A DNA stretch of 58,867 nt, from the IMG/VR virus record IMGVR_UViG_3300034062_004791, positions 1 to 58,867 of that record, one strand, 5' to 3'. The position numbers and the translations under genes were made by a program. Below, piece after piece: positions 230 to 52,773 of the stretch. The notes below the pieces were generated by a model. The model did not search any database. It had not been told where the DNA came from and saw only the letters and a program-made list of their open reading frames with translations. The stretch is from a virus. Each line of letters begins with the position of its first letter. Position 1 is the stretch's first letter.

Positions 230-284
230 AGTGTACGGCATGGGATGGAGAGTAGCGACCAGTCAAGACCAGTTCAAGAAGTGT
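230..284 (-). promoter_or_regulatory. Dyad promoter for the gene at 1-168
   Basis: The dyad half AACTGGTC is at 267-274, with GACACTT as partner up to 284. About 30 bp downstream lies TACACT (230-235). An overlapping CTATAA is an alternative -10. Here the terminator precedes the dyad instead of lying inside the spacer. Confidence 0.55.
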
Positions 285-293
285 CCACCAAAC

Positions 294-315
294 AAAAAAG
301 GCGGCCATGGCCGCC
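294..315 (-). terminator. Intrinsic terminator
   Basis: On the minus strand the palindrome GGCGGCCATGGCCGCC is followed by six T. The stem starts inside the TAG stop codon of the gene at 315-536. Confidence 0.85.
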
Positions 316-536
316 TAATCATAAACACCCCAATGCTCTTTTACATAAATCAAAAATTCTGGGATGATTTTCTCATTATAAAATGGATCCAACTTTCGAT
401 CCTTAAAGATCCTAAGAAGCATGTTCGGTTGATACCGGGACAATACATTTGTATAACATTGCCCCCAATTGAGTCTTGGGTAGTTTTCGTCATAATCATC
501 CACGACTTCTTCAAGATAGCGTTTAAATTCTGTCAT
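315..536 (-). CDS. Hypothetical protein, 73 aa
   Basis: Acidic, helical small protein (begins MTEFKRYLEEVV). Its ATG overlaps the TGA of the upstream HNH gene (ATGA), so the two are translationally coupled. It ends with TAG inside the terminator stem. Family not recognised. Confidence 0.6.
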   Translation of the reverse strand: MTEFKRYLEEVVDDYDENYPRLNWGQCYTNVLSRYQPNMLLRIFKDRKLDPFYNEKIIPEFLIYVKEHWGVYD

Positions 537-1075
537 GATTGTTTAATGTAGGCTTTTTTGTTTATTTTGTATGAGGATCCCCTTTCGCTGAAGATAAAAA
601 TTTCTTCTTTTTGATTATAGGGATTAATATCAATTTTTTCAATAATCCCTTTATATATTAATTTTCTATGAGACTTTACATAAAGCTCCTTACCTTCGAT
701 GGGTCCTCGATAACTTATAAAAGGAACCACATCGATTCCACTACCTTTTTCTCTGTTACACACATAGCACATTGGTTGAAGATTTTCGATATTATCTTTT
801 CCTCCAAATACTTTAGGAATTATGTGATCAATTGTAATTTCTATGTCATCTGATGACAGAATTGACCAGAAAATTCTATCGTGTCTTTGATCCTTATACT
901 TCCTCAATTTAATGGCGCATCTACCACAAGAAACACATGTGTATCCAATCTTCTTAAAGAGTTTAATTCTCTTAGCAGTACCTAGAAATCTAGACGAATA
1001 TATTTTGTCCGAGACAATAACATCTTCAAAAGAAAGTTCTTTTAGAAGTTGGGGCTGAGGTTTCTTTTTTGCCAT
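533..1075 (-). CDS. HNH endonuclease
   Basis: 180 residues. The middle carries a zinc-binding CVSCGRC knuckle (about residues 48-54), then the ββα-metal HNH core with IDHIIPKVFGG (about 83-93) and the closing CYVCNREKG. This is the layout of free-standing HNH homing endonucleases and McrA-like nucleases, which cut double-stranded DNA. The lysine-rich N-terminus and the extra C-terminal domain (about 115-180) probably set DNA binding. It sits in a run of small genes with no intron hallmarks visible, so it is likely a free-standing mobile endonuclease. The target is unknown. Confidence 0.85.
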   Translation of the reverse strand: MAKKKPQPQLLKELSFEDVIVSDKIYSSRFLGTAKRIKLFKKIGYTCVSCGRCAIKLRKYKDQRHDRIFWSILSSDDIEITIDHIIPKVFGGKDNIENLQPMCYVCNREKGSGIDVVPFISYRGPIEGKELYVKSHRKLIYKGIIEKIDINPYNQKEEIFIFSERGSSYKINKKAYIKQS

Positions 1076-1077
1076 TA

Positions 1078-1281
1078 TTAAAAAAGAAGTTGGTTTAAAA
1101 TCTGGTGTTTAAGTGGAGTCGGTGTTCTTGGGTCGATGTCTATTTGTTTGACACGACCAGAATATTCGCTATATGCAAATAGCGAATATTCGGCCAGACG
1201 TTTACCGTCCATCCATTCTCCGACCTTATAAGACTCGATGTATTCTGATTGGCTATTGGGTCCTATTGCAAGGAGTTTCAT
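1078..1281 (-). CDS. Hypothetical protein, 67 aa
   Basis: The start at MKLLAIGPNS (1281) is preferred over an ATG two codons upstream; both overlap the end of the gene at 1284-1529. Mixed composition with no recognised motif. It lies between a Cys-rich gene and the HNH gene in one operon. Confidence 0.55.
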   Translation of the reverse strand: MKLLAIGPNSQSEYIESYKVGEWMDGKRLAEYSLFAYSEYSGRVKQIDIDPRTPTPLKHQILNQLLF

Positions 1282-1283
1282 GT

Positions 1284-2785: not shown

Positions 2786-2843
2786 ATTATAGGGGATAAT
2801 GACCGCGAATGGAGACTAGGGTGGACGGTTTAAAAACCGTTAC
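2786..2843 (-). promoter_or_regulatory. Dyad promoter for 2469-2762
   Basis: The dyad (ACGGTTT-N4-AAACCGT, 2821-2843) covers the stop codon of the gene at 2840-3127. TATAAT at 2786-2791 follows 29 bp after the right half. There is no hairpin in the spacer and no TTGACA-like -35. Confidence 0.75.
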
Positions 2844-3127
2844 CTAAGCATATAGGGAGGGTTGAAAAAATCCCAAATAAGTTTCCGCCAAGAATTCTTG
2901 GGCTTTTCTTGTACTTGCACTTCTTTTTGTTCAAAGTCCTTGGCATATTTACCACACATAGATTCATTTCCCCTAACATCATTAATCTTATAAAAAATTA
3001 AGTGGTTGCCACCATTTAGATAATCAGGGAATGATTCATAATATTTTGAGCATTCGGCACCCTCCATAAAATCTAGATACATACAATGTTTGCATTCCAG
3101 ACATGCTGGGATAGATTCGTTTGACAT
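2840..3127 (-). CDS. Small cysteine-rich protein, probable zinc binder
   Basis: 95 residues. CLECKHCMY near residue 9 is followed by further Cys at about 26 and 58, like the gene at 1284-1529. The C-terminal third (QEKPKNSWRKLIWDFF) is basic and aromatic. It is a single-gene unit with its own dyad promoter (3152-3209). Confidence 0.65.
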   Translation of the reverse strand: MSNESIPACLECKHCMYLDFMEGAECSKYYESFPDYLNGGNHLIFYKINDVRGNESMCGKYAKDFEQKEVQVQEKPKNSWRKLIWDFFNPPYMLR

Positions 3128-3151: not shown

Positions 3152-3209
3152 ATCATATGGCATTCAGAGCACTTTAGACACCTCAAGTGGACAGTTTTTC
3201 AACTGTCAC
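3152..3209 (-). promoter_or_regulatory. Dyad promoter for 2840-3127
   Basis: Near-perfect dyad GTGACAGTT-N4-AACTGTCCAC (3187-3209), 29 bp spacer, TATGAT at 3152-3157. The TGA stop of the toprim gene lies in the dyad centre. AAGGAG precedes the next ATG. Confidence 0.8.
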
Positions 3210-3747
3210 AATACTTACTGACAAGAAAATCAACATAATCATCTGGTGCTTCTCCAAGGTCCTTACCATCAGGAACAACCTCAACATAATCACCAAAATT
3301 GGCTAATTTTCTTCCAGCATCATCATTATCACAAACAACAATGATTGGGCGATTTAGCATTTCTAGCCAGTTTTTATAATCTTTTGGTGGATTATTTGCA
3401 AGAGTGGCAAAGGCCGATTGTTTTAATTCGGTCATCCGACAAGCATCAAAGATGCCTTCGGTTAGAAAGATAGGACCATCAGAAACATAATAACTTTCCA
3501 GGCCCCAGATTGCGATGGTTGGTTGGTTTTTATTTCTGTAGGTATAATATTTTCCTTTTTTCGGGCAATTAAAAACTTTTTTACATCCCTCTGGTTGATA
3601 TTGTTGGTAGCCCACCAATTGACCCGAGAGATTATAAAGAATAAAAGTTGCAATATTTAGTTCTTCATCAAGAATTGGTCTATGAAGTTCTAGGTCAAGA
3701 TGCCGTTGTTTTAGGTGGGTCTTTATGTTCATAACCAGTTCCGCCAC
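3199..3747 (-). CDS. Toprim-domain protein, primase-like fragment
   Basis: 182 residues. The central and C-terminal parts match the toprim fold of DnaG-type and phage primases: IFLTEGIFDACRM with the catalytic Glu (about residue 96), then IIVVCDNDDAGRK with the DxD pair (about 138-140), then a KDLGEAPDDY tail. No zinc-finger or catalytic RNA-polymerase subdomain is present, so it is a short stand-alone toprim protein rather than a full primase. The GTG start at 3747 has AGGA upstream; an ATG at 3732 is the alternative. It overlaps the zinc-finger gene upstream by about 50 bases. Confidence 0.75.
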   Translation of the reverse strand: MAELVMNIKTHLKQRHLDLELHRPILDEELNIATFILYNLSGQLVGYQQYQPEGCKKVFNCPKKGKYYTYRNKNQPTIAIWGLESYYVSDGPIFLTEGIFDACRMTELKQSAFATLANNPPKDYKNWLEMLNRPIIVVCDNDDAGRKLANFGDYVEVVPDGKDLGEAPDDYVDFLVSKYCDS

Positions 3748-4207: not shown

Positions 4208-4264
4208 ATCATAAAGCAAAAAGGACCCTATGAGTGGGTCCTTGTGCCAGTTGGTCGGGTGTCT
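4208..4264 (-). promoter_or_regulatory. Dyad promoter with nested terminator, for 3971-4183
   Basis: The dyad at 4244-4263 (AACTGGCAC right half) is followed by the hairpin GGACCC-N7-GGGTCC plus TTTTT (4221-4241), then TATGAT at 4208-4213, 30 bp after the dyad. Confidence 0.8.
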
Positions 4265-4266
4265 AC

Positions 4267-4818
4267 TTATACCCCACAAGTAGCCATTTGTTCTTGTTGA
4301 GACTTTTGAACAAACTGAGTGATTTCACTTGAGAGTTCGTAAGATTCTTTACGGGCCTCCTCAAGAATTGGGTCAATGAACCACTTCATTACCAGTTGTT
4401 CTGGGAGTCCTTTATATGACTCTGTTTTTAGATTGAGGTTAGACTGCATAATCCAGAAAAATGGCTGAGCATAATGAGACAGCATATTCGTAGCAATTTC
4501 TGTAATATCGATAGTAATATTAGGAAAATAATCAATATCATTCATATAGAGAGCTTGTGCATAGCCTGCGATACAGTGAGAGGTCCCACAACTATTTTTT
4601 GTGTGCCAACTATTCATATTAAATCGGTTTTGATTAGACTTAATAATAGAGGCAACCCTTACAAGATTACTCCATTGCTCGGCTGTGATAGAACTTCCAC
4701 TATTGAAAATGTCATCATTCCGAGAAAACATAAAAACACCTGGCCTTACACCAGTAATTTGTTCAGATTCAGCAAGCAGAGCAAAATAGTTGTTCTTGAA
4801 ATCAATTGGAGTCAACAT
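4267..4818 (-). CDS. Hypothetical phage protein with CGTSHCIAG motif
   Basis: 183 residues. The central SWHTKNSCGTSHCIAGYAQ (about residues 70-88) is a motif I know from a widespread phage family of unknown function. The surrounding sequence is mixed alpha/beta. It is transcribed alone from the promoter at 4849-4908. Confidence 0.65.
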   Translation of the reverse strand: MLTPIDFKNNYFALLAESEQITGVRPGVFMFSRNDDIFNSGSSITAEQWSNLVRVASIIKSNQNRFNMNSWHTKNSCGTSHCIAGYAQALYMNDIDYFPNITIDITEIATNMLSHYAQPFFWIMQSNLNLKTESYKGLPEQLVMKWFIDPILEEARKESYELSSEITQFVQKSQQEQMATCGV

Positions 4819-4848
4819 AATTTAAAATGAGTTGGTTGAACTGAGTGT

Positions 4849-4908
4849 ATTATAGGGGATATTGATGGGAGGTGGTAGGGTCCTTGTGCCAGTTAGTCGG
4901 GTGTCCTA
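4849..4908 (-). promoter_or_regulatory. Dyad promoter for 4267-4818
   Basis: Dyad 4886-4905, then AAGGACCC but no hairpin partner, then TATAAT (4849-4854) after 31 bp. The TAG stop of the upstream gene abuts the dyad. This copy shows that the spacing does not depend on a terminator. Confidence 0.8.
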
Positions 4909-5172
4909 CCATACATACACTTCTTTTTGATAAAAATTCCAATTTCCTACAATTTCCTTTGCATTATCTCCAAAAAATCCATGAGTAATTCCAGATGGGT
5001 TCCGTCTCCCTAGAATATCGCAACACACAGTCAACTCTTGATAAGACGCATAAACCACCGTATTAGTTCTAGGTGACATAAATTCATTTAGTTCCTCATC
5101 TGGGATAAATTGACCTAGTTTAATCGACAGATCGCCTTTTGAATTATTAAATTTAGAAATAAGTAATGGCAT
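4906..5172 (-). CDS. Hypothetical protein, 88 aa
   Basis: Start at 5172 (MPLLISKFN) because the frame upstream is promoter sequence. It contains a Cys pair (VCCDI). No family recognised. Monocistronic between two dyad promoters; it ends TAG. Confidence 0.6.
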   Translation of the reverse strand: MPLLISKFNNSKGDLSIKLGQFIPDEELNEFMSPRTNTVVYASYQELTVCCDILGRRNPSGITHGFFGDNAKEIVGNWNFYQKEVYVW

Positions 5173-5195
5173 AATGAGTTGATTGAACTGGAGAC

Positions 5196-5253
5196 AGTAT
5201 AAAAGAGAATTGGCTGGTCTGGTCGGGTCCTTGTGCCAGTTGGTCAGGTGTCT
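5196..5253 (-). promoter_or_regulatory. Dyad promoter for 4906-5172
   Basis: Dyad 5233-5252, AAGGACCC without hairpin, 31 bp spacer, TATACT at 5196-5201. The TGA of the upstream gene is inside the dyad. Confidence 0.75.
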
Positions 5254-5468
5254 CCAGTGCAATCCAAAAAGTAATGATAATGAGCCGAATTGGGTGGGAT
5301 ATAGCGAACCACCACGCAACCCTTGTACGTGTCAACTTCCTCAAACTTTTGTGGTGGTTCTTTAGGTGCCACTGTAATATTGGATACAATATACATCGCC
5401 AAAAATGTTGGTATGGAAAGTATAATGCCCAAAAGTACACATTCGCCAATATTTAAAAGTGTTTTCAT
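5244..5468 (-). CDS. Single-pass membrane protein, 74 aa
   Basis: The ATG at 5468 (MKTLLNIGE) is favoured; the longer frame overlaps the neighbour. One strong transmembrane helix (about residues 10-30) is followed by a polar tail with KEPPQKFEEV. The stop TGA falls in the next dyad. Last gene of the 5244-6520 operon. Confidence 0.6.
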   Translation of the reverse strand: MKTLLNIGECVLLGIILSIPTFLAMYIVSNITVAPKEPPQKFEEVDTYKGCVVVRYIPPNSAHYHYFLDCTGDT

Positions 5469-5481
5469 AATAATCAACAGA

Positions 5482-5700
5482 TCACGAAACGATGAAACGA
5501 TGAGATTTAAAGATATCGTATCCATAATCAGTACTAACAAAGAATCCCAATTCTTCCAACCTCTTCTTATCCTCAGAGGATACATAAAAAGGTGAAATTA
5601 CAGGATTAACAGTCAAAGAATTGTTTTCACAATGGAACAATGGGGGTTCAAAATTTCCATATTTGGAAAAGATTTGGAGTGCTTCAATTAGGTCGTTCAT
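5482..5700 (-). CDS. Hypothetical protein, 72 aa
   Basis: Starts MNDLIEALQIF; ends with aromatic beta-type sequence. Family unknown. Within the 5244-6520 operon. Confidence 0.55.
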   Translation of the reverse strand: MNDLIEALQIFSKYGNFEPPLFHCENNSLTVNPVISPFYVSSEDKKRLEELGFFVSTDYGYDIFKSHRFIVS

Positions 5701-5709
5701 AATAATAAT

Positions 5710-5943
5710 TCAAATTTCGTCTACAAAACTAACAGTCGGAGTAAGTCCTTGAATTTTGTACTCCTCAATTTTCTTGAATGTTTCTGTGGTGAAAGAATCA
5801 TCTTCTAGTTCTTTTTGACTAGCAAATTTGAGAAATAAGTTGTAATCATAAGAATCAAGGTCTTTTGATGGGACTATGCTGTTTGCATCAAAAAATTCAA
5901 CTTTACCGGACTTTATGAGTTCTTCTAATTCTTTAATTTTCAT
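5710..5943 (-). CDS. Hypothetical protein, 77 aa
   Basis: Charged, helical N-terminus (MKIKELEELIKSG). ATGA overlap with the upstream gene. No family recognised. Confidence 0.55.
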   Translation of the reverse strand: MKIKELEELIKSGKVEFFDANSIVPSKDLDSYDYNLFLKFASQKELEDDSFTTETFKKIEEYKIQGLTPTVSFVDEI

Positions 5944-6167
5944 TTTGATAAGTGTTCTCGTTTGTCAAGTTCTTCTTTTATTACAGAAAGTTTTTGATTA
6001 ATTTTTTTTCTATTTTCTCTCCATTCAACACAAGAAGAACAATCACAATACCATACCCAGTCCGCTGCATAAACGTGTAAATACTCTCTTTCTTTACGAT
6101 AAACCTCCAAGAGACGATGAGTGGGGAGTTTAAGAATTGTTTCTAGTTTGTTTCTGTTAGGGTCCAT
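5940..6167 (-). CDS. Hypothetical protein with CDCSSC motif, 75 aa
   Basis: A central WYCDCSSCVEW cluster (about residues 39-49) suggests a metal or redox site between two charged helices. ATGA overlap downstream. Function unknown. Confidence 0.6.
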   Translation of the reverse strand: MDPNRNKLETILKLPTHRLLEVYRKEREYLHVYAADWVWYCDCSSCVEWRENRKKINQKLSVIKEELDKREHLSK

Positions 6168-6172
6168 AATAT

Positions 6173-6520
6173 TTAAATCGTCTCCATTAATTCTTCAAAA
6201 AAATTAATATTGGCAATCCGTTTTTGAGCATGTTTGGTCAACTCCACAAGAACTTTGGTTGTTGGTGAAATATAACCATCCCATGTTTGGTTATGCTCTA
6301 GGTAATCTACAAGTTCCACTAGATACTTGATAGAACAACTACTAATCTCAAAAGATTTCCCAACAATCCAATTATCCGTGATAAAAGTATAAAGAACAGG
6401 AGCCGGTTCTTGGCTATTGCACACCGCCTCAAACATGTCATTACGAAAATCATGCATTTCGTCATTCTCTAGGAACAAACGAACCACATTGCTAGTTGAA
6501 GACTGATGCTCAAATTTCAT
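6173..6520 (-). CDS. Hypothetical protein, 115 aa
   Basis: First gene of the operon behind the promoter at 6547-6605. Mostly helical, with no recognised motif. Confidence 0.6.
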   Translation of the reverse strand: MKFEHQSSTSNVVRLFLENDEMHDFRNDMFEAVCNSQEPAPVLYTFITDNWIVGKSFEISSCSIKYLVELVDYLEHNQTWDGYISPTTKVLVELTKHAQKRIANINFFEELMETI

Positions 6521-6546
6521 GATGAATTGCCGTTTGGTTATGGGGT

Positions 6547-6605
6547 AATTTTAAGAGAAAAAGGACCCTGGTGGTAGGGTCCTTGTGTCAGTTGGTTATG
6601 TGTCA
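6547..6605 (-). promoter_or_regulatory. Dyad promoter with nested terminator, for 6173-6520
   Basis: Dyad 6585-6605, hairpin GGACCC-N6-GGGTCC with TTTTT, then a weak -10 (TTAAAATT, 6547-6554) at the usual distance. Confidence 0.65.
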
Positions 6606-6607
6606 CA

Positions 6608-6931
6608 TTACAGAGGAATAAAAGTAATTTTCTGGCCAATCCAATTGTACAAAGAAATGATGCTGTTTTGGTCATAGGCAAAATCATCATAACGAGGAAG
6701 TGTTCCACAAGACAGGTCCAAATTCTTCTCTAGTTTAGAACCCACCAAGTTTGGATTGTATTTGCTTGAGAAGATTTTAAGGGCCAGTTCTGACCTACAA
6801 GAAAGAATGTGTTCTTGAGTGGCCCGATAGGTTTTGTCTTGGGTATAATGAGAAAATGAGTCGGAAGTTAGTGGAAATACCAGGAAGATAATTCCAAGAA
6901 CTGATAAGGCGATTGCAAGAGAACGGTTCAT
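6608..6931 (-). CDS. Membrane-anchored protein, 107 aa
   Basis: N-terminal hydrophobic segment (about residues 5-22) that could be a signal anchor, then a soluble part with two Cys about 30 residues apart (LSCRSEL and LSCGTLP), possibly a disulfide. A similar size and Cys plan occurs at 47502-47738. Confidence 0.6.
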   Translation of the reverse strand: MNRSLAIALSVLGIIFLVFPLTSDSFSHYTQDKTYRATQEHILSCRSELALKIFSSKYNPNLVGSKLEKNLDLSCGTLPRYDDFAYDQNSIISLYNWIGQKITFIPL

Positions 6932-6933
6932 TT

Positions 6934-7296
6934 TTAAATGGAATCAACCAACTGAGAATATCGGGGGAAATTACACAAGTAGTAAAACTCACTATTATCC
7001 CAGAAATCGTTTTCAATTAAATAGTCCCCAACCTCCTCATTCAGAAATACATGAACAGGATGCTCCTCAAGATATTTAATTGTACGATTGTTCCTGGCTT
7101 CATTATGAATATCATCTGCTTGATACATTAGGTAAAAAGAGCCGATTGTTTTCTTGAACAAGTCAACAATACGTTCTCTGGTAAACTCAGTAGTATCACG
7201 ATATACAATCATTTGCACAATAGCAAACGTCAATGGTCGTAAGGTACTACCAAAATCATTGTCAGAAAATCTGATACCGATGGAGTGAATTTTCAT
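6934..7296 (-). CDS. Hypothetical protein, 120 aa
   Basis: Begins MKIHSIGIRFSDNDFG. Mixed alpha/beta, with no known motif. Two bases separate it from the next gene. Confidence 0.6.
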   Translation of the reverse strand: MKIHSIGIRFSDNDFGSTLRPLTFAIVQMIVYRDTTEFTRERIVDLFKKTIGSFYLMYQADDIHNEARNNRTIKYLEEHPVHVFLNEEVGDYLIENDFWDNSEFYYLCNFPRYSQLVDSI

Positions 7297-7310
7297 AATA
7301 AGTTACTTTT

Positions 7311-7604
7311 TCAGATTCCAGAAGTAGTAGAAGTAAAATAGGAATAAGCAATGGCCATGCATATATCATTATCTCCACCCTGCCATTCTTGGTAAGATTC
7401 TACCAAGCCCTTGCGTTCCAGAGTTCTCCGCACAGAGTCCCGAGTCAATAAAATGAAGTTATGAGAATACTTCCCTAAACTCTCCATGTAAGCATAGAAC
7501 TTCTTTTCAAAATCAGCCGGATAAGTGCATCTGTTACAAAACGCCAAGTACTCTAGGGCTTTATTGAGATCCTCCGGGGTGGAGATACCTTGTATCTTAT
7601 CCAT
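7311..7604 (-). CDS. Hypothetical protein, 97 aa
   Basis: Starts MDKIQGISTPEDL. Contains CNRC near residue 23. Helical. Its ATG overlaps the end of the tiny membrane gene at 7597-7677, which suggests coupled translation. Confidence 0.6.
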   Translation of the reverse strand: MDKIQGISTPEDLNKALEYLAFCNRCTYPADFEKKFYAYMESLGKYSHNFILLTRDSVRRTLERKGLVESYQEWQGGDNDICMAIAYSYFTSTTSGI

Positions 7605-7677
7605 TGAGGCTTTTCCAATAGGCGTAGATAATGAAGTAGGATAAAAGAACTGGTAAAACCAAGATGATTATTGACAT
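7597..7677 (-). CDS. Tiny membrane protein, 26 aa
   Basis: An ATG at 7677 opens 26 codons that are almost entirely one hydrophobic helix, ending YWKSLNG. It fills the gap between the CCA-adding enzyme gene and 7311-7604 with an eight-base overlap. Only composition and position support it. Confidence 0.45.
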   Translation of the reverse strand: MSIIILVLPVLLSYFIIYAYWKSLNG

Positions 7678-7680
7678 AAT

Positions 7681-8412
7681 TTACTTTTTGAGTGTGGGCA
7701 TAAGACGCAGACCATCTCGGAAGATTGCATTTTTAAGATTAGTTCTAAGGTCTGCAATCATTTCCAAAGTAAAGAGACTATTGGCCAAGAACATTTTCTC
7801 AAGTTCTTCCCGAATCCGCTCAATAGAAACCTTATGAAGCATTTCTGCCCCAAAGTCACTATTGACCGCATCCCAGGTGTTAGGTTCAATATCGAATCCT
7901 TTGGTGATATGGAACCTCAGGGCTCGCATAACCCTTAGACCATCTTCTGTGATTCGGTCGGTTGGATTACCAACAAATCGAAGAAGATTGTTGTTAAGGT
8001 CATCTAGGCCACCGAAAGGGTCAACTACTTCACCATTAAGGATGCAAAAAGAATTTACGGTGAAATCCCTTCTTTTTAAATCGTCCATCAAAGTTCCAGG
8101 TAGAACAAAATCAGGACGGCGACCATCAGTACTCGGACCATCTTTTCGGGCGAGAACAAAATCAGCAACGTTGGTGCGTTCTTTTAGTGGATGGCCATCA
8201 GGAACTTGTGCCCGAACAGTAAAGAATTCAGGAGTCTCAAGGAATACTTTGAATCCATTGTTTTTTAGATGTTCAACCAGATGGTTAAATGCGAACTCTG
8301 CATTTACAAACATATCGGGATTTTCTGGAATTGCAACAAAATCAACGTCTTTGGATTCTAGGCCAAGAAACTTGTCTCGGACTGCACCGCCGACTTCTGC
8401 AAAAGTAAACAT
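7681..8412 (-). CDS. CCA-adding enzyme / tRNA nucleotidyltransferase, short form
   Basis: 243 residues of the class II nucleotidyltransferase family that adds or repairs the CCA end of tRNA. Motifs in order: GGAVRD (8-13), the metal-binding DVD (22-24), RRDFTVN (114-120), and EDGLRVMRALRFH (156-168) of the neck that selects CTP and ATP. Bacterial enzymes are usually about 400 residues or more; the body and tail domains after about residue 230 are absent here, so it is a minimal head-neck form or a processing nuclease-free variant. The window's only tRNA lacks an encoded CCA, which fits a need for it. It overlaps the upstream gene by one base (TAATG). Confidence 0.88.
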   Translation of the reverse strand: MFTFAEVGGAVRDKFLGLESKDVDFVAIPENPDMFVNAEFAFNHLVEHLKNNGFKVFLETPEFFTVRAQVPDGHPLKERTNVADFVLARKDGPSTDGRRPDFVLPGTLMDDLKRRDFTVNSFCILNGEVVDPFGGLDDLNNNLLRFVGNPTDRITEDGLRVMRALRFHITKGFDIEPNTWDAVNSDFGAEMLHKVSIERIREELEKMFLANSLFTLEMIADLRTNLKNAIFRDGLRLMPTLKK

Positions 8413-8573
8413 TAGTCCTGGAGTGAAGAAATAATTGTTGCTAATAGATTTAAAACTGCACTAGAACCACAAAACCCAACAAAGAATGGGAGTGAAACTT
8501 GAGCAGAAATGACTGCAAGAACACCAAAAATAAGTGCTCGTTGAAAATATGCGTTTGGGTTTTCGGAAAGCAT
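8412..8573 (-). CDS. Small membrane protein, 53 aa
   Basis: The ATG at 8573 starts a 53-residue protein with two hydrophobic stretches (about 13-30 and 36-50). Its TAA overlaps the ATG of the CCA-adding enzyme gene. Confidence 0.55.
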   Translation of the reverse strand: MLSENPNAYFQRALIFGVLAVISAQVSLPFFVGFCGSSAVLNLLATIISSLQD

Positions 8574-8612
8574 TGGATTTCAGGTAATGAGACAGTTCCT
8601 TAAGTATCCTAT

Positions 8613-8843
8613 TTAATCAACCCTGTTAAGAACAGCATAGATTGCATCAGAAGATACGGCAGTGGAATTACAAATCAATCCACGAATCTGTGTGAGTGCC
8701 TGTTCTGGTGAAATAGAGATTTTTTCTACGCTTTCAATTTTCAAATTTTTATAATTATCAAGATAATTTTTTAAGTCATATTCAACACTATTGGTATTGA
8801 GAGCAACGGAATCAAACTCAATCGTAGCACTGTATCGGGGCAT
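8613..8843 (-). CDS. Hypothetical protein, 76 aa
   Basis: Begins MPRYSATIEFDSVAL, a beta-strand pattern followed by a helix. AAGGAG lies upstream and the dyad promoter 8873-8931 precedes it. Family unknown. Confidence 0.6.
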   Translation of the reverse strand: MPRYSATIEFDSVALNTNSVEYDLKNYLDNYKNLKIESVEKISISPEQALTQIRGLICNSTAVSSDAIYAVLNRVD

Positions 8844-8872
8844 TGGGGAGTTCTCCTTGTGTGTATGAGAGT

Positions 8873-8931
8873 ATTATACAATGAAAAAGGACCCTGATGC
8901 TAGGGTCCTTGTGACAGTTACTCAGGTGGCT
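8873..8931 (-). promoter_or_regulatory. Dyad promoter with nested terminator, for 8613-8843
   Basis: Dyad 8911-8930 holding the TAA of the upstream gene, hairpin GGACCC-N7-GGGTCC plus TTTTT, TATAAT at 8873-8878 after 32 bp. Confidence 0.82.
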
Positions 8932-9085
8932 CCTCGTTGTTGGTTAATACGAATTTCATCCAATAAGAGCCAAATAAAGTTCCCACTAAAAATGGTTGAA
9001 CAAACTCTTCGGGAAATCTTAATGTTACGAACACTATCAACAATGGACCAGCAACAAATACAATGAGGTTCTTTAGTGATTTCAT
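8918..9085 (-). CDS. Small membrane protein, 55 aa
   Basis: ATG at 9085. Two hydrophobic segments (about 6-22 and 30-45) and an acidic tail EEPPE. The stop is inside the dyad of the next promoter. Confidence 0.55.
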   Translation of the reverse strand: MKSLKNLIVFVAGPLLIVFVTLRFPEEFVQPFLVGTLFGSYWMKFVLTNNEEPPE

Positions 9086-9119
9086 GAATTCAATGGGAAA
9101 TACGTCGTTTTAAAATCGT

Positions 9120-9581
9120 CTACCCGCTAATTTTTCTATGAGTCTGTTGAAATCCATTGTAATGATAAGTTGTAAATTTTCCAATGTAATGAGCATCCTT
9201 TGGTCTAGATACCATTACATAAGACACAATAATATTAGGCATAGAATTGTAATTAACCAGTTTTATTACTGGTTCTCCCTCATAATTTGGAATTGTTCTC
9301 CATGTACCCTCTCTTTGAAGTTTTTCATAAGCATAAGTAACCTTACAAAAAGGATAACTTTCTATCTTTACCATTGTTCTTGGGTGACTATTTGATTGCC
9401 AAATAGTCCCAATTTCAGGAACAGATTTCTTAGGGGGATTGAGGGTAGAAATTAGATCATTAATTTCATTTTCAGTAAGTCTATATTTTCCATTATCACT
9501 TTCATAATCACCATGACCGTCAAACATGTTAATTGCATCAAGAATAAATGCAATTTGATTTTGGTTTAGATTTAGGTCCAT
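9120..9581 (-). CDS. Hypothetical protein, 153 aa
   Basis: A helical N-terminal 45 residues with LTENEINDLI, then a beta-rich part from about residue 55 (PEIGTIWQSNSHPRTMVKI), which looks like a small barrel. No family named. Transcribed from 9605-9661. Confidence 0.6.
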   Translation of the reverse strand: MDLNLNQNQIAFILDAINMFDGHGDYESDNGKYRLTENEINDLISTLNPPKKSVPEIGTIWQSNSHPRTMVKIESYPFCKVTYAYEKLQREGTWRTIPNYEGEPVIKLVNYNSMPNIIVSYVMVSRPKDAHYIGKFTTYHYNGFQQTHRKISG

Positions 9582-9604
9582 TAGAGTTTGATGATTACTT
9601 GGAT

Positions 9605-9661
9605 AGTATAAAACAAAAAAGGCGCCCGTGAAGGCGCCATTGTGACAGTTTAAAAATTGTC
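9605..9661 (-). promoter_or_regulatory. Dyad promoter with nested terminator, for 9120-9581
   Basis: Dyad GACAATT-N4-AACTGTCAC (9642-9661), hairpin GGCGCC-N6-GGCGCC with TTTTTT, TATACT at 9605-9610 after 31 bp. The hairpin sequence differs from the GGACCC copies while the spacing is kept. Confidence 0.82.
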
Positions 9662-42509: not shown

Positions 42510-43303
42510 ACTTCAATCTCAAAATTTGGATCGAAATCTGGATTTAGCCCAGAACTATTATAAGAATTATAATAGCCCCTTGGATTACATATAACCCGAC
42601 AACCCCCAATCATGTAATCAAAACTATCATGCATATGACCATGAGAAAAATACTTAATCTGCGGATTATTCAAAATCAAATCATCTAAATTACTGGCAAA
42701 TGCCCCGTTCATGGTCTCGGCCCGGTATTTCGGATGAATCGACTGATAAGACGGCGCATGGTGAGTGCAGATCCAGATTTTTTCGTCCTTAAACTCTTCT
42801 AATTTCTCAATCAAGAATTGTTTAGATTGTTTATGGAACCCAAGAGTATCTTCTGGTCGTAATTTCCTATAATTATTTCCAATTCTTATGCTTGTATAAT
42901 CTCGCATATACCTCTGGGCCTCCATCATTTCTAATGGGTTCTCATTAAAAAAGTCTGTCCAGAGCGTGCAACAAAGGAAGGTCCAACTTTTGATTTTTAT
43001 GTACTCATTTTCAAGTAAGTGGATATTATCTGGGAGATTTTCTTTTATGAGATCATGAGTTGACTCAAAATTGTACCCCCAAAATTCGTGGTTTCCTTTT
43101 ATGTAAATAACATGCTCAAAATTATCAGAACATTTTTGAAGAAAATCTTTATAGACTTTTTTAAGGGGGCCATCAGTCTTAAAGTGGCGAGCACATAAGA
43201 TGTCACCACCTAAAATCAAGATTTCACCTGATTTTAAGTCAGGAACCCCGTGGCCCTGATCACAAAATTCAAGGTGAGCGTCCGAGACACATTTCACTCG
43301 CAT
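42500..43303 (-). CDS. Calcineurin-like metallophosphoesterase
   Basis: 267 residues with the full motif set: SDAHLEF, LILGGDIL, YIKGNHEFWG, CTHHAPS and SHGHMHDSFDY. These bind two metal ions and hydrolyse phosphodiesters or phosphomonoesters. The substrate (nucleic acid, nucleotide or protein) cannot be told. Its start overlaps the end of 43294-43590. Confidence 0.85.
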   Translation of the reverse strand: MRVKCVSDAHLEFCDQGHGVPDLKSGEILILGGDILCARHFKTDGPLKKVYKDFLQKCSDNFEHVIYIKGNHEFWGYNFESTHDLIKENLPDNIHLLENEYIKIKSWTFLCCTLWTDFFNENPLEMMEAQRYMRDYTSIRIGNNYRKLRPEDTLGFHKQSKQFLIEKLEEFKDEKIWICTHHAPSYQSIHPKYRAETMNGAFASNLDDLILNNPQIKYFSHGHMHDSFDYMIGGCRVICNPRGYYNSYNSSGLNPDFDPNFEIEVDD

Positions 43304-43590: not shown

Positions 43591-43825
43591 ACTCAAAAAT
43601 CTTAGTCAATAAATTAAATTCAAAAGTAATTCTAAAAACACTAACAACAAGAGAAAAAACCTGATTAAGACCACAATCAATTCGGATCCATGGCCAGCCA
43701 CCATATTCGTCTAAAGAGAAACTGAACTCGGCCAGGGCGAATTTGTTTTTGACAGGCAAGACAGTAAAAATAACCATCTTGCCACCATATTTCTCGGTGT
43801 ATGTAAACTTAAGCGGCCAGCTCAT
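43583..43825 (-). CDS. Hypothetical protein, 80 aa
   Basis: Start MSWPLKFTYTEKYG at 43825. Beta-rich, ends FSLVVSVFRITFEFNLL, weakly like 39858-40136. Confidence 0.55.
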   Translation of the reverse strand: MSWPLKFTYTEKYGGKMVIFTVLPVKNKFALAEFSFSLDEYGGWPWIRIDCGLNQVFSLVVSVFRITFEFNLLTKIFEYD

Positions 43826-45392
43826 TGGTTCTAATCTCAAGGGCCTTTTTGAATGCCTTAGAAAACTCTTCTTGTTCTGCATAATTTAGACTGGTATTAC
43901 ATTGCTTTTTAATTTGAATAACCTTAAAGTTTTCTTCTTCCAACTTGGCCTGAATAGTCAGGTATGGAGCATTTTCTTTAAGGGCCAAGATAATAAAATG
44001 ATTCTTCTTTAGAATACCATCTGAATAAGTAGAACTACCTACGCAGTTTCTGGCAACCCGGCCATAATGTGAAAGTTGATAAGTCGATTGGGGCTGAAGG
44101 AAAGTTAGGCCATCAACCTTAACGGGAGACGGAAAAAGATCCTGGGGAAGATCTACATTTTTGTGGTTACATTTCCACTGTTCGGCCATAATCCAATCAT
44201 GAAATTCTGCTGCCCTCCAGCGTCCGGAGTATTTCAATTCCATATCTGGTTTGTAATAAAAAACATCCCCAATCATGCTAATTGTGTCTTTAACCACAAT
44301 AGGCGAATTAATAAACATATTCACAAAAGACTTTACCGGGACATTTTCTTGGACCCAAATCATTTGGGGCTGTCGAAAGGTATAGCCAGAATAAAAAATA
44401 GAACTCTGACGAAAATCATGATCCATCGACCAGATCTGTTGAAGATAGTCCAGAGACATTTTTTCTCCATAAAGATTAATCAAGACATTCAAGACATTTA
44501 GTCTATTGACAATTGATGCATGTTTATGAGAAATAAGATGCTCATAGTCTCTGTTAGATTTCCATTCTGGTGGATTATTAAAAGTATCAATAATCCAAAG
44601 AATATCTTGATTGATTACCTTTTTAAAGAAAGGAGTATTGATAGCCTCTTTGAGTTCTCTGGAATGATACCTACTAATATTCAAATAATAATCAATATCT
44701 GGAACCCAGTGGAAATCATTTTCTTGTGTCCAATTAGACAAAACCACCGCCAAGGACCGATTATATGAATAGAACATATTATACATATTAGATTCTATCT
44801 TAATATGTTTTTGAAGTTTACTGATAAAACCATCCCTGGCAGCCTGTTCCGGTCCAGGCTGATTATACGTATTACCAAAGGGTGTCACCATCTGATAGGT
44901 GTGATTCTTTAGATCCTCTGGAGTCACACTACGGAAAAGATAAAGATATTCTTTTTTATTATGGAACCGAGAAGTAAAATCTTCTTCTTTTACATTAAAA
45001 GTTTTAAAATAATAACCATCCCTATACGTCTTAAGAGACTTAAGATTTCTTACACACAAGGAATAATTAAATACAACCTCCTCACTATTATCAAACCAAA
45101 TCGCATACCAGAAGCGGTTACCGATTTTTGTTACAATAATGGTATTTTCTCCTGATACAGTAGCAGAAGTTGCATAGTGATTATAATAGGGATCGGTATG
45201 CCTGTTTAGTGTCTCAATAATATTCTTGAGCCGTTCTTTAGGTAGGATATTTTCTGGAACCAGATTTTCTGGAATTCCGGCCTTTGGGAAAGTTGGTTTG
45301 GTGCTTGCTGGCTTTTTAGGGGCCACTGGTTTTTTTACATCATAATCCTCTACTTTTACATAAAGAGGCTTGGGGATAGTAAAATTCAACAT
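43809..45392 (-). CDS. PcfJ-like protein, 527 aa
   Basis: The C-terminal domain GRVARNCVGSSTYSDGI followed by HFIILALKENAPYLTI and FKVIQIKKQCN matches the PcfJ-like family (L..EG..M.HCVGSY ... LT.E...G.I.QIRG.N). The first 60 residues are Pro/Lys-rich. PcfJ proteins are found in conjugative elements and phages and their function is unknown. ATG at 45392 overlaps the upstream TGA. Confidence 0.72.
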   Translation of the reverse strand: MLNFTIPKPLYVKVEDYDVKKPVAPKKPASTKPTFPKAGIPENLVPENILPKERLKNIIETLNRHTDPYYNHYATSATVSGENTIIVTKIGNRFWYAIWFDNSEEVVFNYSLCVRNLKSLKTYRDGYYFKTFNVKEEDFTSRFHNKKEYLYLFRSVTPEDLKNHTYQMVTPFGNTYNQPGPEQAARDGFISKLQKHIKIESNMYNMFYSYNRSLAVVLSNWTQENDFHWVPDIDYYLNISRYHSRELKEAINTPFFKKVINQDILWIIDTFNNPPEWKSNRDYEHLISHKHASIVNRLNVLNVLINLYGEKMSLDYLQQIWSMDHDFRQSSIFYSGYTFRQPQMIWVQENVPVKSFVNMFINSPIVVKDTISMIGDVFYYKPDMELKYSGRWRAAEFHDWIMAEQWKCNHKNVDLPQDLFPSPVKVDGLTFLQPQSTYQLSHYGRVARNCVGSSTYSDGILKKNHFIILALKENAPYLTIQAKLEEENFKVIQIKKQCNTSLNYAEQEEFSKAFKKALEIRTNELAA

Positions 45393-45541
45393 CAAAATTC
45401 CTCCACAACTTTATTGGTTTCGTTATCAATTACATAAGAACTGCCAAAATGGACCGCCATTGACATGGCAATATCAATGGCCTCTTCTAGGCTATCACAT
45501 TCTTGAAATTCAGTATTGGAGTGTGCAGAGTAGCGTTTCAT
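45392..45541 (-). CDS. Small protein, 49 aa
   Basis: Start MKRYSAHSNTEFQECD at 45541; EEAIDIAMSMAVHFGSSYVID is typical of small phage proteins. Unknown. Confidence 0.55.
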   Translation of the reverse strand: MKRYSAHSNTEFQECDSLEEAIDIAMSMAVHFGSSYVIDNETNKVVEEF

Positions 45542-45562: not shown

Positions 45563-45620
45563 AGAATAGCCCACCTCAGCAATTGAGATGGGCCAAGATG
45601 GACAGTTTTTAAACCGTCAC
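45563..45620 (-). promoter_or_regulatory. Dyad promoter for 45392-45541
   Basis: Dyad GTGACGGTT-N4-AACTGTCCAT (45598-45620), hairpin GGCCCATCTC/GAGGTGGGC in the spacer, TATTCT at 45563-45568 after 29 bp. Confidence 0.7.
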
Positions 45621-45754
45621 TCAGTAAACTCTAGGTCAGAAACTTCTTCTTCCACTGCATCAGAGCAGAGAGACGAAACCTTATCGAGTAGGTCAAGGAT
45701 TTGACTACCGGTTTTACCGGATCGAACAATTGCCAGGGCTTCTTCGCGTGACAT
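45617..45754 (-). CDS. Small protein, 45 aa
   Basis: ATG at 45754; MSREEALAIVRSGKTGSQIL, acidic end in the dyad. Unknown. Confidence 0.55.
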   Translation of the reverse strand: MSREEALAIVRSGKTGSQILDLLDKVSSLCSDAVEEEVSDLEFTE

Positions 45755-45777: not shown

Positions 45778-45930
45778 TTACAGGGTTTTTAGAAGTTGTT
45801 GAACTTCCGGGGATAATTCTTCTTCAACCGGAGACGAAAAAACTCCGGTCTCTAGAAGATTGTCGATGAGAGTCTGGGATAGCTTCTCATCAGACGGTTC
45901 TAGTCTAACGTACTTTTCCTTACTTGGCAT
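45778..45930 (-). CDS. Small acidic protein, 50 aa
   Basis: ATG at 45930; MPSKEKYVRLEPSDEKLSQT. Unknown; typical small phage protein. Confidence 0.55.
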   Translation of the reverse strand: MPSKEKYVRLEPSDEKLSQTLIDNLLETGVFSSPVEEELSPEVQQLLKTL

Positions 45931-45935
45931 AATCA

Positions 45936-45957
45936 GTGGACAGTTCTTCAATTGGCA
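45936..45957 (-). promoter_or_regulatory. Dyad element without a clear -10
   Basis: GCCAATT-N4-AACTGTCCAC. The position 29 bp downstream lies inside 45778-45930 and reads AGACTA, so promoter activity is doubtful. Confidence 0.35.
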
Positions 45958-46061
45958 TAATCATCGAATTCGGGATAGTCCTCTTCATTTTCTTCTTCCT
46001 CTTTCATGAGGTACTCAAAAAGCTCTTTTTCTTCGGTTTTTTCAGCGATTAACGTTTCCAT
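45948..46061 (-). CDS. Very acidic small protein, 37 aa
   Basis: ATG at 46061; METLIAEKTEEKELFEYL followed by a run of Glu. Ends in the dyad. Confidence 0.45.
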   Translation of the reverse strand: METLIAEKTEEKELFEYLMKEEEENEEDYPEFDDYAN

Positions 46062-46698: not shown

Positions 46699-46755
46699 AT
46701 TATATAGGGTGGGTGATCAGGATTTTTTATGAGTGTGCCAGTTTGGGGAGTGGCT
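46699..46755 (-). promoter_or_regulatory. Dyad promoter for 46511-46666
   Basis: Dyad GCCACTC-N4-AACTGGCAC (46735-46755), TATAAT at 46699-46704 after 31 bp, no hairpin. Confidence 0.75.
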
Positions 46756-46763
46756 CAAAGCGG

Positions 46764-48981: not shown

Positions 48982-49018
48982 AAAAACCTCGGTTAACTTT
49001 TTAAGTTTAGCCGAGGTT
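48982..49018 (-). terminator. Hairpin terminator overlapping a -10
   Basis: ACCTCGGCTAA ... TTAACCGAGGT followed by TTTTT, 5-6 bases before the next ATG. The TAAACT -10 of the dyad promoter lies on the left arm/loop. Confidence 0.65.
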
Positions 49019-49061
49019 ATGGTTTTATTGGGTTAGGGTGTGACAGTTAGGAGATTGTCAC
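49004..49061 (-). promoter_or_regulatory. Dyad promoter for 48306-48980
   Basis: Dyad GTGACAATC-N4-AACTGTCAC (49040-49061) covering the upstream stop, TAAACT at 49004-49009 after 30 bp. Confidence 0.65.
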
Positions 49062-49411
49062 CAGTCGGTTTCGGATTCCAGATCGTCAATTGCGGTGAAA
49101 ATCTGGTCGCGGAACTCGTTGAGTTTTGCGTCAACGGCTGGCGCACGGACTGACCATTGCGAAATCCAACTGATCATTTCATTAACCCCCTCACGGGCAC
49201 GATCAGCAGCGGTAGGCTCGACTTCCTCTTCAGGAACATCGGCCTCAAGATCATCAACAAAGAAGAATCGTGAATAAAAGGAACATTCTTTTACATTCCC
49301 CATTGTTGTTTGTACCCAGCGTTCAAGATTCGCATCATAAGCCAGCACTTTAGAAGAAGTGGTGCGAGCGGTAAAATCGTAATCAGAGCGGTTGAAAATT
49401 TGATAATTCAT
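49058..49411 (-). CDS. Hypothetical protein, 117 aa
   Basis: Start MNYQIFNRSDYDF at 49411. Beta start, then a strongly acidic middle (DDLEADVPEEEVEP), then a helix. Unknown. Confidence 0.6.
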   Translation of the reverse strand: MNYQIFNRSDYDFTARTTSSKVLAYDANLERWVQTTMGNVKECSFYSRFFFVDDLEADVPEEEVEPTAADRAREGVNEMISWISQWSVRAPAVDAKLNEFRDQIFTAIDDLESETDW

Positions 49412-49443: not shown

Positions 49444-49499
49444 AATGTAGCACGTTTAAAGGCCAGTGGTCAATTTAGTGGACAGTTAAAGGACCGTCC
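49444..49499 (-). promoter_or_regulatory. Dyad promoter for 49058-49411
   Basis: Dyad GACGGTC-N4-AACTGTCCAC (49478-49499), TACATT at 49444-49449 after 28 bp; within the 3' end of the kinase gene. Confidence 0.62.
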
Positions 49500-49949
49500 A
49501 TCGGCCACTTGAGAGAAACCCTCCGAAACGCATGGCCTACTATAAGAGCCATGCATCGACTCTAGCACATGAATGGGGACAGTTTTTGTTCTGTCTGAGT
49601 TGTGATTTCTTTTTAACATTTCTTCTTTGGTTATTTCAAAATAAACAGCAATCTTCTCATAATGATCTGGAATCATTTTGAGTTTTCTTTTCCTAACTTT
49701 TGGGGTCAGGTGAGTCTGATCACAAATAATGTTTTGATCATTTTTGACCGCATGTTCAAGTTGTTGAAGCATTAATGAGATTGCCTCGGTTATGTATTCA
49801 CTAAAGATCGCATCGTATGTCGAGTTGATATTCTCAGCATAATTTTCGATTATGTTGTCAGAAGAGATGACAATGTATCCTGGGTGCGTTTTGACCCAGG
49901 AAGATTTTCCAGATGTTGGAACACCGCATAAAAGAATTGCTTTAGGCAT
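49470..49949 (-). CDS. P-loop kinase, polynucleotide-kinase-like
   Basis: 159 residues. Walker A GVPTSGKSS (9-17), IISSDNII-type lid, IICDQTHLT and a RNHNSDRTKTVP-type Arg motif match the kinase domain of T4 PNK and AAA_33 kinases. No phosphatase domain. It follows the RNA ligase gene with an eight-base overlap, which supports a role in 5'-phosphorylation during RNA repair. The last codons overlap a dyad. Confidence 0.82.
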   Translation of the reverse strand: MPKAILLCGVPTSGKSSWVKTHPGYIVISSDNIIENYAENINSTYDAIFSEYITEAISLMLQQLEHAVKNDQNIICDQTHLTPKVRKRKLKMIPDHYEKIAVYFEITKEEMLKRNHNSDRTKTVPIHVLESMHGSYSRPCVSEGFSQVADGRSFNCPLN

Positions 49950-51276: not shown

Positions 51277-51299
51277 GACAAAACTCTAAGGGCAAATGA

Positions 51300-51356
51300 A
51301 CCATAAAACGTTTTTAGACAGAATAGTATAAAAAGTAGACAGTTTAAAAATTGTCT
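51300..51356 (-). promoter_or_regulatory. Dyad promoter for the RNA ligase operon
   Basis: Dyad AGACAATT-N4-AAACTGTCT (51335-51356), TATGGT at 51300-51305 after 29 bp; a TATACT at 51326-51331 is a closer but unconventionally placed alternative. Confidence 0.65.
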
Positions 51357-52587
51357 ACTTACTAATTTCCTGAGACACTGTTTCTCCCAGGGTAAAACTT
51401 TTGTAAATGACCGTTTCTACTGCTTCCGCAACTTTCTTTGAATAAGAATCAAAAACTGGCAATACAATCAGACCATAAGGCTTTACATAATTCCTATAAT
51501 CACATGCACGCAATTCACCAGATACAATTCGATCTGAATCGTTTTTATGAAGACGAATTACACGACCAACAGTTTGGACCATATCAATAATAGACATATT
51601 CCTTAGGAAGATTACTGAATCAAGACCAACCACATTGATTCCTTCTCCTAGGATACTGTAATTGAGCACCACAAATTTCTTTTCTTCATCATTACCCCAC
51701 TCGTTAAGGGTCTTGAAGAAGTCGGCTCTTTTGACCTCTTTCCCATCAATATAACACCCATGTTGTGAGGTAATATGCATAAGACTATAATCTCTTTCTT
51801 TTAGTTGTTCTGCAAAATCAGTTTCACTGATCAATGAAATAATTGATTTAGTAGACTTTGCGGCAATAAGAACCTTGGATGCATTTTCTTCATCAAGGGT
51901 CTTTAGGATCAGGTTACAATTACGTTCATCAATATTCTCACTATTTTCTACTTCTTTTTTTACAACCAATGGTGGAATAACAAAACCCTGGTCTACCATT
52001 TGGGTCATTGGGACACTACAAAGAATTTCACCATAGACTTCTTTGATATTCATTCCTGGTTTTTTATCAGGAATAAGGGAGTTTTTAGGGGTAGCCGTAA
52101 AGAAGTATTTTTTGTTTGCAGACTTGACTGCGTCTTCAATATGGGGAAAGAAGTTTTTCTTTACCGAGTTGTGACATTCATCAAAATTGTATGTATCAAC
52201 CTTAATTCCAGATTCGATTACTTTCTTTAGGGAATTATAAGAAGTAAAGATTAGTTTATGGTGGTCTTTATGGATATTATGCCATTCTTTAAGATTTTGT
52301 GGATCAGTTGTTCTATAATGTTTGAATTTAGATCCAGAATGAATATGAATAAACTTTGCATTAGTAATAAACTTCTCATATTCTTGAGACAGTTGAGAAA
52401 CAAGAAGAAGTCTTGGTGCAACAACACAAACAGTCTGAGGAATAGATGATTCAAACTGTTTAATTGTATTTTGAATAAAAATAATAGACTTACCAGCACC
52501 TGTTCCTAGGATAATTGAACCATTATCATTATGATGCATCTGATGCAATGCGTCTTGTTGATGTGGTCTGAGAATAATAGGAGTCAT
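51355..52587 (-). CDS. SF2 DNA/RNA helicase, UvsW-like
   Basis: 410 residues. LRPHQQDAL (Q-like), GTGAGKS (28-34), VVAPRLLLVSQ (Ia), DECH (136-139, a DEAH/D-type box), FTATP (III), motif V LGEGINV and motif VI QTVGRVIRL. This is a complete SF2 core like T4 UvsW, which remodels replication and recombination forks. Two dyad promoters lie upstream. Confidence 0.86.
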   Translation of the reverse strand: MTPIILRPHQQDALHQMHHNDNGSIILGTGAGKSIIFIQNTIKQFESSIPQTVCVVAPRLLLVSQLSQEYEKFITNAKFIHIHSGSKFKHYRTTDPQNLKEWHNIHKDHHKLIFTSYNSLKKVIESGIKVDTYNFDECHNSVKKNFFPHIEDAVKSANKKYFFTATPKNSLIPDKKPGMNIKEVYGEILCSVPMTQMVDQGFVIPPLVVKKEVENSENIDERNCNLILKTLDEENASKVLIAAKSTKSIISLISETDFAEQLKERDYSLMHITSQHGCYIDGKEVKRADFFKTLNEWGNDEEKKFVVLNYSILGEGINVVGLDSVIFLRNMSIIDMVQTVGRVIRLHKNDSDRIVSGELRACDYRNYVKPYGLIVLPVFDSYSKKVAEAVETVIYKSFTLGETVSQEISK

Positions 52588-52609
52588 TTGGTAGTGTTAT
52601 TATTTTATT

Positions 52610-52665
52610 ATTGTAGTGGGTATTTATGAGATTTAATGAGATAGTAGACAGTTTTATAAGTGTCT
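52610..52665 (-). promoter_or_regulatory. Proximal dyad promoter for the helicase
   Basis: Dyad AGACACTT-N4-AACTGTCTAC (52644-52665), TACAAT at 52610-52615 after 28 bp. CATAAATA at 52621-52628 may be an overlapping late promoter. Confidence 0.7.
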
Positions 52666-52714
52666 ATATTAGTTATTAATTAATATATAATGTATTCACT
52701 AAACCGACAAACCG

Positions 52715-52773
52715 ATCCTAGACCCTTTCTCAGAAAAAGTCAAGTACCTATAAGACAATCGGGAAATTGTCAC
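52715..52773 (-). promoter_or_regulatory. Distal dyad promoter with a -35, for the helicase
   Basis: Dyad GTGACAATT-N4-GATTGTC (52753-52773), TAGGAT at 52715-52720 after 29 bp, and TTGACT at 52738-52743 with 17 bp spacing. The only copy with both a dyad and a good -35. The region 52588-52820 holds no gene. Confidence 0.65.

Follow-up and report, generated by a model that had tools for sequence, protein, structure and literature searches.

The DNA analysed here, positions 1 to 58,867 of the IMG/VR virus record IMGVR_UViG_3300034062_004791 (the window, 58,867 bases), is by its sequence a piece of a T4-like cyanophage (Kyanoviridae) close to Synechococcus phage B23, which is itself filed under Kyanoviridae by annotation. 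The helicase of the window shares 68% identity with the B23 helicase and at most about 44% with hundreds of other T4-like cyanophage helicases. The genes are mostly short, unknown and located on the minus strand; at the right end, an RNA ligase and the helicase adjoin tail-fibre-like genes. A recurrent promoter unit was found in the window. It consists of a 24 bp palindrome (the dyad), TGTGACAGTT-N4-AACTGKCACA, at about -65 to -42, a host-type -10 box, a predicted start at a purine 7 bases downstream of that box and an ATG about 18 bases further. A first-pass annotation of the window had described about 32 copies of an imperfect dyad followed by a TATAAT-like box. This count is borne out by 35 clear minus-strand sites and one ambiguous site (52751-52774), and the eight sites given as examples all lie where they had been placed. 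The dyad is longer than first written.

For detection of the dyad, a position weight matrix (PWM) was trained on B23, P-SSM2, S-SRM01 and S-PM2 only; the window was excluded to avoid circularity. With this independently trained PWM, 35 dyads were detected in the window at a score of at least 12, compared with a mean of 0.59 and a maximum of 4 in 100 dinucleotide shuffles, which confirms the enrichment over shuffled sequence. At a score of at least 10, there are 37 dyads; on the minus strand, 35 of these are followed at 28-32 bp by a TA...T box that matches TATAAT in at least 4 of 6 positions, and on the plus strand none is. Other 5-nt distance windows contain 0-4 such words, except for 11 at 33-37, mostly second TA...T words beside the main box. 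The fixed spacing of 28-32 bp noted earlier is thus real, and it is narrow: among 36 window sites, the distance is 28 bp once, 29 bp in 5, 30 bp in 14, 31 bp in 14 and 32 bp in 2, so that 28 of the 36 sites have 30 or 31 bp. The dyad and -10 pattern of the first-pass annotation matched the minus strand 52 times and the plus strand 8 times, compared with 15-16 matches on the reversed sequence. An iterative model returned 37 window dyads, many of them entered twice as the palindrome can be read in either direction; the good -10 was the one on the minus strand.

Table 1. Dyad promoter units of the window and a helix-turn-helix-like protein of other phages
Extent	Strand	Dyad	-10 box	Predicted start	Start codon	Remarks
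230-288	-	265-288	TACACT 230-235	223	ATG 55 nt after start	weaker
2786-2844	-	2821-2844	TATAAT 2786-2791	2779	ATG 2762	
3152-3210	-	3187-3210	TATGAT 3152-3157	3145	ATG 3127	
4208-4266	-	4243-4266	TATGAT 4208-4213	4201	ATG 4183	terminator-like spacer hairpin
4849-4908	-	4885-4908	TATAAT 4849-4854	4842	ATG 4818	
5196-5255	-	5232-5255	TATACT 5196-5201	5189	ATG 5172	
6548-6607	-	6584-6607	TAAAAT 6548-6553	6541	ATG 6520	spacer hairpin
8873-8933	-	8910-8933	TATAAT 8873-8878	8866	ATG 8843	spacer hairpin
9605-9664	-	9641-9664	TATACT 9605-9610	9598	ATG 9581	spacer hairpin
10810-10870	-	10847-10870	TATAAT 10810-10815	10803	ATG 10780	spacer hairpin
11211-11270	-	11247-11270	TATAAT 11211-11216	11204	ATG 11184	spacer hairpin
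12164-12223	-	12200-12223	TAAACT 12164-12169	12157	ATG 12139	
12714-12771	-	12748-12771	TATCTT 12714-12719	12707		no nearby start codon found
14921-14980	-	14957-14980	TATAAT 14921-14926	14914	ATG 14896	
15377-15436	-	15413-15436	TACAAT 15377-15382	15370	ATG 15354	
16280-16338	-	16315-16338	TATTAT 16280-16285	16273	ATG 16248	
22654-22712	-	22689-22712	TATTGT 22654-22659	22647	ATG 22617	
25066-25123	-	25100-25123	TATAAT 25066-25071	25059	ATG 25037	
25337-25395	-	25372-25395	TATAAT 25337-25342	25330	ATG 25314	
29885-29944	-	29921-29944	TATAAT 29885-29890	29878	ATG 29855	spacer hairpin
33910-33969	-	33946-33969	TATAAT 33910-33915	33903	ATG 33884	
35134-35192	-	35169-35192	TATAAT 35134-35139	35127	ATG 35109	
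36739-36798	-	36775-36798	TATACT 36739-36744	36732	ATG 36709	488 aa open reading frame
38495-38554	-	38531-38554	TATGAT 38495-38500	38488	ATG 38472	
39197-39255	-	39232-39255	TATTGT 39197-39202	39190	ATG 39168	
40750-40809	-	40786-40809	TAAACT 40750-40755	40743	ATG 40728	weak dyad
42453-42511	-	42488-42511	TATTGT 42453-42458	42446	ATG 42421	
45563-45621	-	45598-45621	TATTCT 45563-45568	45556	ATG 45541	
45902-45959	-	45936-45959	TAGACT 45902-45907	45895		no nearby start codon
46699-46757	-	46734-46757	TATAAT 46699-46704	46692	TTG 46666	
49004-49062	-	49039-49062	TAAACT 49004-49009	48997	ATG 48980	phosphoesterase open reading frame
49444-49501	-	49478-49501	TACATT 49444-49449	49437	ATG 49411	
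49539-49598	-	49575-49598	TATAGT 49539-49544	49532		weak; no nearby start codon
51300-51358	-	51335-51358	TATGGT 51300-51305	51293	ATG 51276	RNA ligase
52610-52667	-	52644-52667	TACAAT 52610-52615	52603	ATG 52587	helicase
52715-52773		about 52750-52774	minus TAGGAT or plus TGTAAT			ambiguous; poor -10 either side
Helix-turn-helix-like protein						Syn9 57929-58093; B23 17501-17671; P-SSM2 138979-139191; S-PM2 about 93932-94144

An alignment, anchored on the -10, of 146 well-formed sites (window plus eight phages) showed three conserved features: the block at -65 to -42, the -10 itself and a purine-T at the predicted start. The latter is present at the predicted offset in 58% of 205 sites (56% of the window sites) and in roughly 3-22% at neighbouring offsets, and it was not part of the search model. 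TATAAT-like -10 boxes with a purine start 7 bases downstream carry the signature of sigma-70. In 32 of the 35 minus-strand sites of the window a start codon follows, mostly an ATG 15-30 nt past the predicted start. B23 has gene starts that were annotated independently of this analysis; there the median distance from the predicted start down to the following annotated gene or tRNA is 20 nt, and a distance of 60 nt or less is seen for 34 of 43 sites (16% for random positions). Together with the purine-T, this supports the earlier reading of the units as promoters. A search that ignored the dyad, for TATAAT-like boxes with a purine start and a correctly spaced ATG, returned 30 units in the window, 20 of which have a dyad, and 79 units in HTVC008M, none of which has one. 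Two B23 dyad promoters are located ahead of tRNA genes, at 110458 (tRNA-Leu, start 17 nt before) and at 45755 (tRNA-Lys, start 41 nt before).

The composite of dyad and -10 was found in at least 120 IMG/VR stretches, compared with 3 for a reversed dyad at the same spacing, and among the matches listed all stretches have open reading frames (ORFs) similar to those of T4-like cyanophages. Whole-genome counts revealed the dyad in B23, S-PM2, P-SSM2, S-CRM01, S-SRM01, ACG-2014f, S-SKS1, S-T4 and Syn9. Against shuffled sequence the counts are 55 vs 5 in B23, 25 vs 3 in S-PM2, 21 vs 3 in P-SSM2 (19 with a good -10), 15 vs 2 in P-HM2, 23 vs 1 in S-SRM01 (50 kb), 28 vs 6 in S-CRM01 and, more weakly, 17 vs 5 in Syn9. 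The PWM also detects the dyad in P-HM2, and S-ShM2 is marginal. T4, DLP6, the T7-like P-SSP7 and the pelagiphage HTVC008M have dyad counts at or below control, and Ma-LMM01 shows a single match. HTVC008M is an informative contrast: it is filed in the same family, infects SAR11 and is free of dyads. The dyad is thus present across T4-like cyanophages, weakly in S-ShM2, and absent from the other T4-like phages tested. Judging from these genomes, nearly all T4-like cyanophages, freshwater and marine, appear to share the dyad promoter, which seems confined to cyanobacterial phages.

The dyads of B23 are located at about 30-118 kb, in a block of small unknown genes and tRNAs, whereas the structural genes and the replication genes (175-204 kb) are almost dyad-free. 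Most Syn9 sites fall within the stretch from the ferrochelatase-like gene to gp25, a similar block of small genes, and matches of the model were found upstream of the small genes gp55-gp90. Location and gene type suggest that the genes led by the dyad are early genes of host takeover and not the counterparts of T4 middle genes.

We therefore read the 35 sites as one activator-dependent promoter class for small early (host-takeover) genes of T4-like cyanophages, with a probability of about 0.78. A dimeric DNA-binding protein would occupy the palindrome (centre -53.5) on one helix face and in fixed phase and, by touching either sigma region 4 or the alpha C-terminal domain directly, would recruit the sigma-70 polymerase of the host. 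The spacing of 30 +/- 1 bp argues for such a contact between activator and polymerase. In the window phage a good -35 would be unneeded because the proposed activator recruits the polymerase by contact. The binder has to come from one of three sources: the host, the virion, or immediate-early expression of the phage.

If the binder is a host protein, the dyad might be bound by a cyanobacterial regulator, the phages having become members of its regulon. We take this option seriously, while holding it to be somewhat improbable. Early promoters must work before phage proteins exist, the element is confined to cyanobacterial phages, and the SAR11 phage HTVC008M lacks it. The host genomes speak against it. 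A scan of 84,980 bacterial and archaeal species genomes for the composite pattern returned 14 stretches, none of them in Synechococcus or Prochlorococcus, so that the composite promoter occurs in no picocyanobacterium of this set. The dyad core is not enriched in 121 genomes of the host family either (89 vs 113 for the reversed control). On these two results a picocyanobacterial host regulon was rejected. In larger cyanobacterial genomes such palindromes look several-fold more numerous than the control (about 209 vs 33 in a hand tally), which favours a host regulator; among 18 palindrome regions examined there, no consistent -10 was found at the right distance. Four larger cyanobacteria have a TGTGACA-N10-TGTCACA-like palindrome directly upstream of the same unnamed membrane protein gene. 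Three of the 14 composite stretches come from one metagenome-assembled genome labelled 'Microbacteriaceae' (ERR2206766_bin.66); its contigs are dense in dyads, with short ORFs on one strand and an HNH endonuclease, and are probably misbinned phage contigs.

Several observations weigh against an activator-dependent promoter class. The label 'early' is drawn from location, gene content and the element reported for the early genes of Syn9. Pfam searches identified no credible DNA-binding family among 56 early-region proteins of P-SSM2 or 54 of Syn9 and P-HM2, and the genes common to dyad phages and missing in HTVC008M belong mostly to known non-DNA-binding families or are uncharacterised, with no recognised DNA-binding domain. 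The -35 element, moreover, is kept beside the dyad in some relatives: a match to at least 5 of the 6 positions of TTGACA was found in 27% of the sites in Syn9 and in S-CRM01, and in 75% of those in S-ShM2, where only four sites are available. Dyad strength and -35 match show no trade-off (rho -0.08, p 0.23). The dyad need not replace -35 recognition everywhere. Fixed-placement palindromic operators are, in addition, common for repressors, so that the dyad could instead be an operator through which otherwise ordinary host promoters of the early genes are shut down at a later stage; the -35 elements of some relatives would suit this. We consider a repressor unlikely, since the site lies upstream of the -35 region, where blocking of the polymerase is less usual, and its spacing to the -10 is rigid. 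The -35 is also nearly absent in the window and in B23, so that the core promoter alone would be weak.

The first-pass annotation had found almost no -35 in the window, which is correct: 8% of the window sites have a match of at least 5 of 6, compared with 2% of shuffled spacers, and such matches are commoner in some relatives. Its further claim that the dyad replaces the -35 fits the window and B23, but is not a general rule, because several relatives keep the -35 and the trade-off is absent. In the activator-dependent promoters proposed here, the dyad would make the -35 dispensable in the window phage without generally having to take its place.

A helix-turn-helix-like protein of 54-70 aa was considered as a promising candidate for the general activator. 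It has 420 records, all from cyanophages, and one of them bears the annotation Rob-like factor. For that role it was set aside in its present form, as P-HM2 contains 13 good sites but lacks a credible copy. The B23 gene for this protein belongs to a gene pair located downstream of an isolated dyad promoter (17235).

The units had also been likened to the middle promoters of T4. The reading as promoters stands, with the dyad as a predicted protein-binding site (about -53.5) at a rigid distance to the -10; the MotA analogy does not. Like T4 MotA/AsiA promoters, the units pair an activator site, instead of a -35, with a sigma-70 -10, and a phage activator that replaces the -35 for delayed-early and replication genes would follow the same logic. 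Such a MotA-like system is nevertheless improbable. In B23 the dyads lie at early-type small genes and the replication genes are almost free of them, so the gene class differs. The site is a palindrome at -53 and not a short box (9 bp for MotA) at -30; no box centred at -30 was found in the dyad sites, whose conserved block lies at -65 to -42. Cyanomyoviruses lack motA and asiA as well as alt, modA and modB, and their early and middle control was described as unclear in a 2010 review (PMC2984593). Later papers describe three temporal classes without MotA promoters (PMC5780444, PMC5082946).

That the palindrome works as an RNA hairpin (a terminator, processing or stability element) is very improbable: folding is conceivable for its arms of 9-10 bases, separated by a 4-base gap, and terminator-like hairpins are present in many spacers, but the palindrome lies upstream of the predicted start at a fixed distance to the -10, and the Watson-Crick complementarity of the arms (0.637) equals that expected from independent columns (0.637), without G-U excess, so that this role was ruled out by the lack of arm covariation. 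For the same reason the arms are probably read separately as DNA half-sites. The palindrome is, on this pattern of conservation, a DNA-binding site and not an RNA hairpin, predicted to bind a dimer, with each arm kept for its own sequence.

Hairpins in the spacer between dyad and -10 are a separate matter. Stems of at least 5 were found in 25% of the window sites, compared with 4% of shuffled spacers, and some are followed by a T run. They resemble terminators that belong to the preceding gene and sit in the space between dyad and -10. The spacing is kept with or without a hairpin, as had been noted earlier. In about a quarter of the sites the hairpin would stop read-through from the preceding gene, and we propose that each unit would therefore be switched separately. 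At 4208-12223 of the window, several cassettes share a near-identical AACTGGCACAAGGACCC...GGGTCCTTTTT stretch of dyad and terminator, as if copied or spread by recombination. For S-PM2, a study of promoter-stem-loop cassettes lists the stem-loop 11369-11391 without a promoter (PMC4503421); this stem-loop lies in the spacer of an S-PM2 dyad promoter at 11347.

Such stem-loop terminators fused to early promoters between genes are known as PeSL cassettes (Arbiol 2010; Comeau 2014, as cited in PMC4503421), which some dyad units resemble in this respect and in the near-identical spacers of several window cassettes; unlike in PeSLs, a stem is present in only about a quarter of the dyad sites. Class I and II sigma-70 activator promoters of the CRP/FNR/FixJ type likewise have an upstream dimer site in fixed phase to the -10 and a weak or no -35, but the dyad centre lies at about -53.5 and not at -41.5 or -61.5, and its TGTG-N16-CACA differs from the CRP spacing. 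The dyad is not known as a part of PeSLs. Doron and colleagues are said to have described in 2016 a novel regulatory element that controls the early genes of Syn9 and is conserved in T4-like cyanophages. That element is reportedly of a non-T4 type and belongs to early genes; the present dyad also matches Syn9, although B23 and P-SSM2 have sites that fit the model better than the Syn9 ones do. The two are probably the same element. No description of the dyad was found in the literature searched, which excluded Doron 2016 and the PeSL papers. Among its details, that literature gave neither the complete 24-bp palindrome and its exact geometry nor the signature of start site and leader, the lack of arm covariation or the finding that hosts and HTVC008M are without the dyad. 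We regard the dyad element as solid and widespread, and as probably already noticed in outline by others.

Other features of the window lie apart from the dyads. A short block of plus-strand ORFs at 17044-20101, amid minus-strand genes, has no dyads. At 55677, outside the dyad region, a late promoter word of the TATAAATA type is located about 50 nt upstream of the ORF 54652-55626. A 528-aa ORF at 43809-45395 encodes a PcfJ-like domain; this family is known from conjugative plasmids.

Among the phages that infect the main photosynthetic bacteria of the ocean, T4-like cyanophages are some of the commonest. With a precise element, consisting of the 24-bp palindrome, a spacing of 30 +/- 1 bp, the -10, the start and an 18-nt leader, their early genes can be called from sequence alone. 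The dyad is also a ready probe for isolating the activator, and the candidates are narrowed by its restriction to phages of cyanobacteria and by its absence from the host genomes. How early transcription proceeds without Alt, ModA, MotA or AsiA was called unclear in 2010 (PMC2984593). More tentatively, infection by nearly all T4-like cyanophages may start through a single dimeric activator, either delivered with the virion or produced by the phage immediately, which would read the palindrome at -53 and bring host polymerase to dozens of promoters that lack a -35. If true, this would be a third route by which a large lytic phage takes over transcription at time zero, beside Alt/ModA of T4 and the virion polymerases of N4 and phiKZ.

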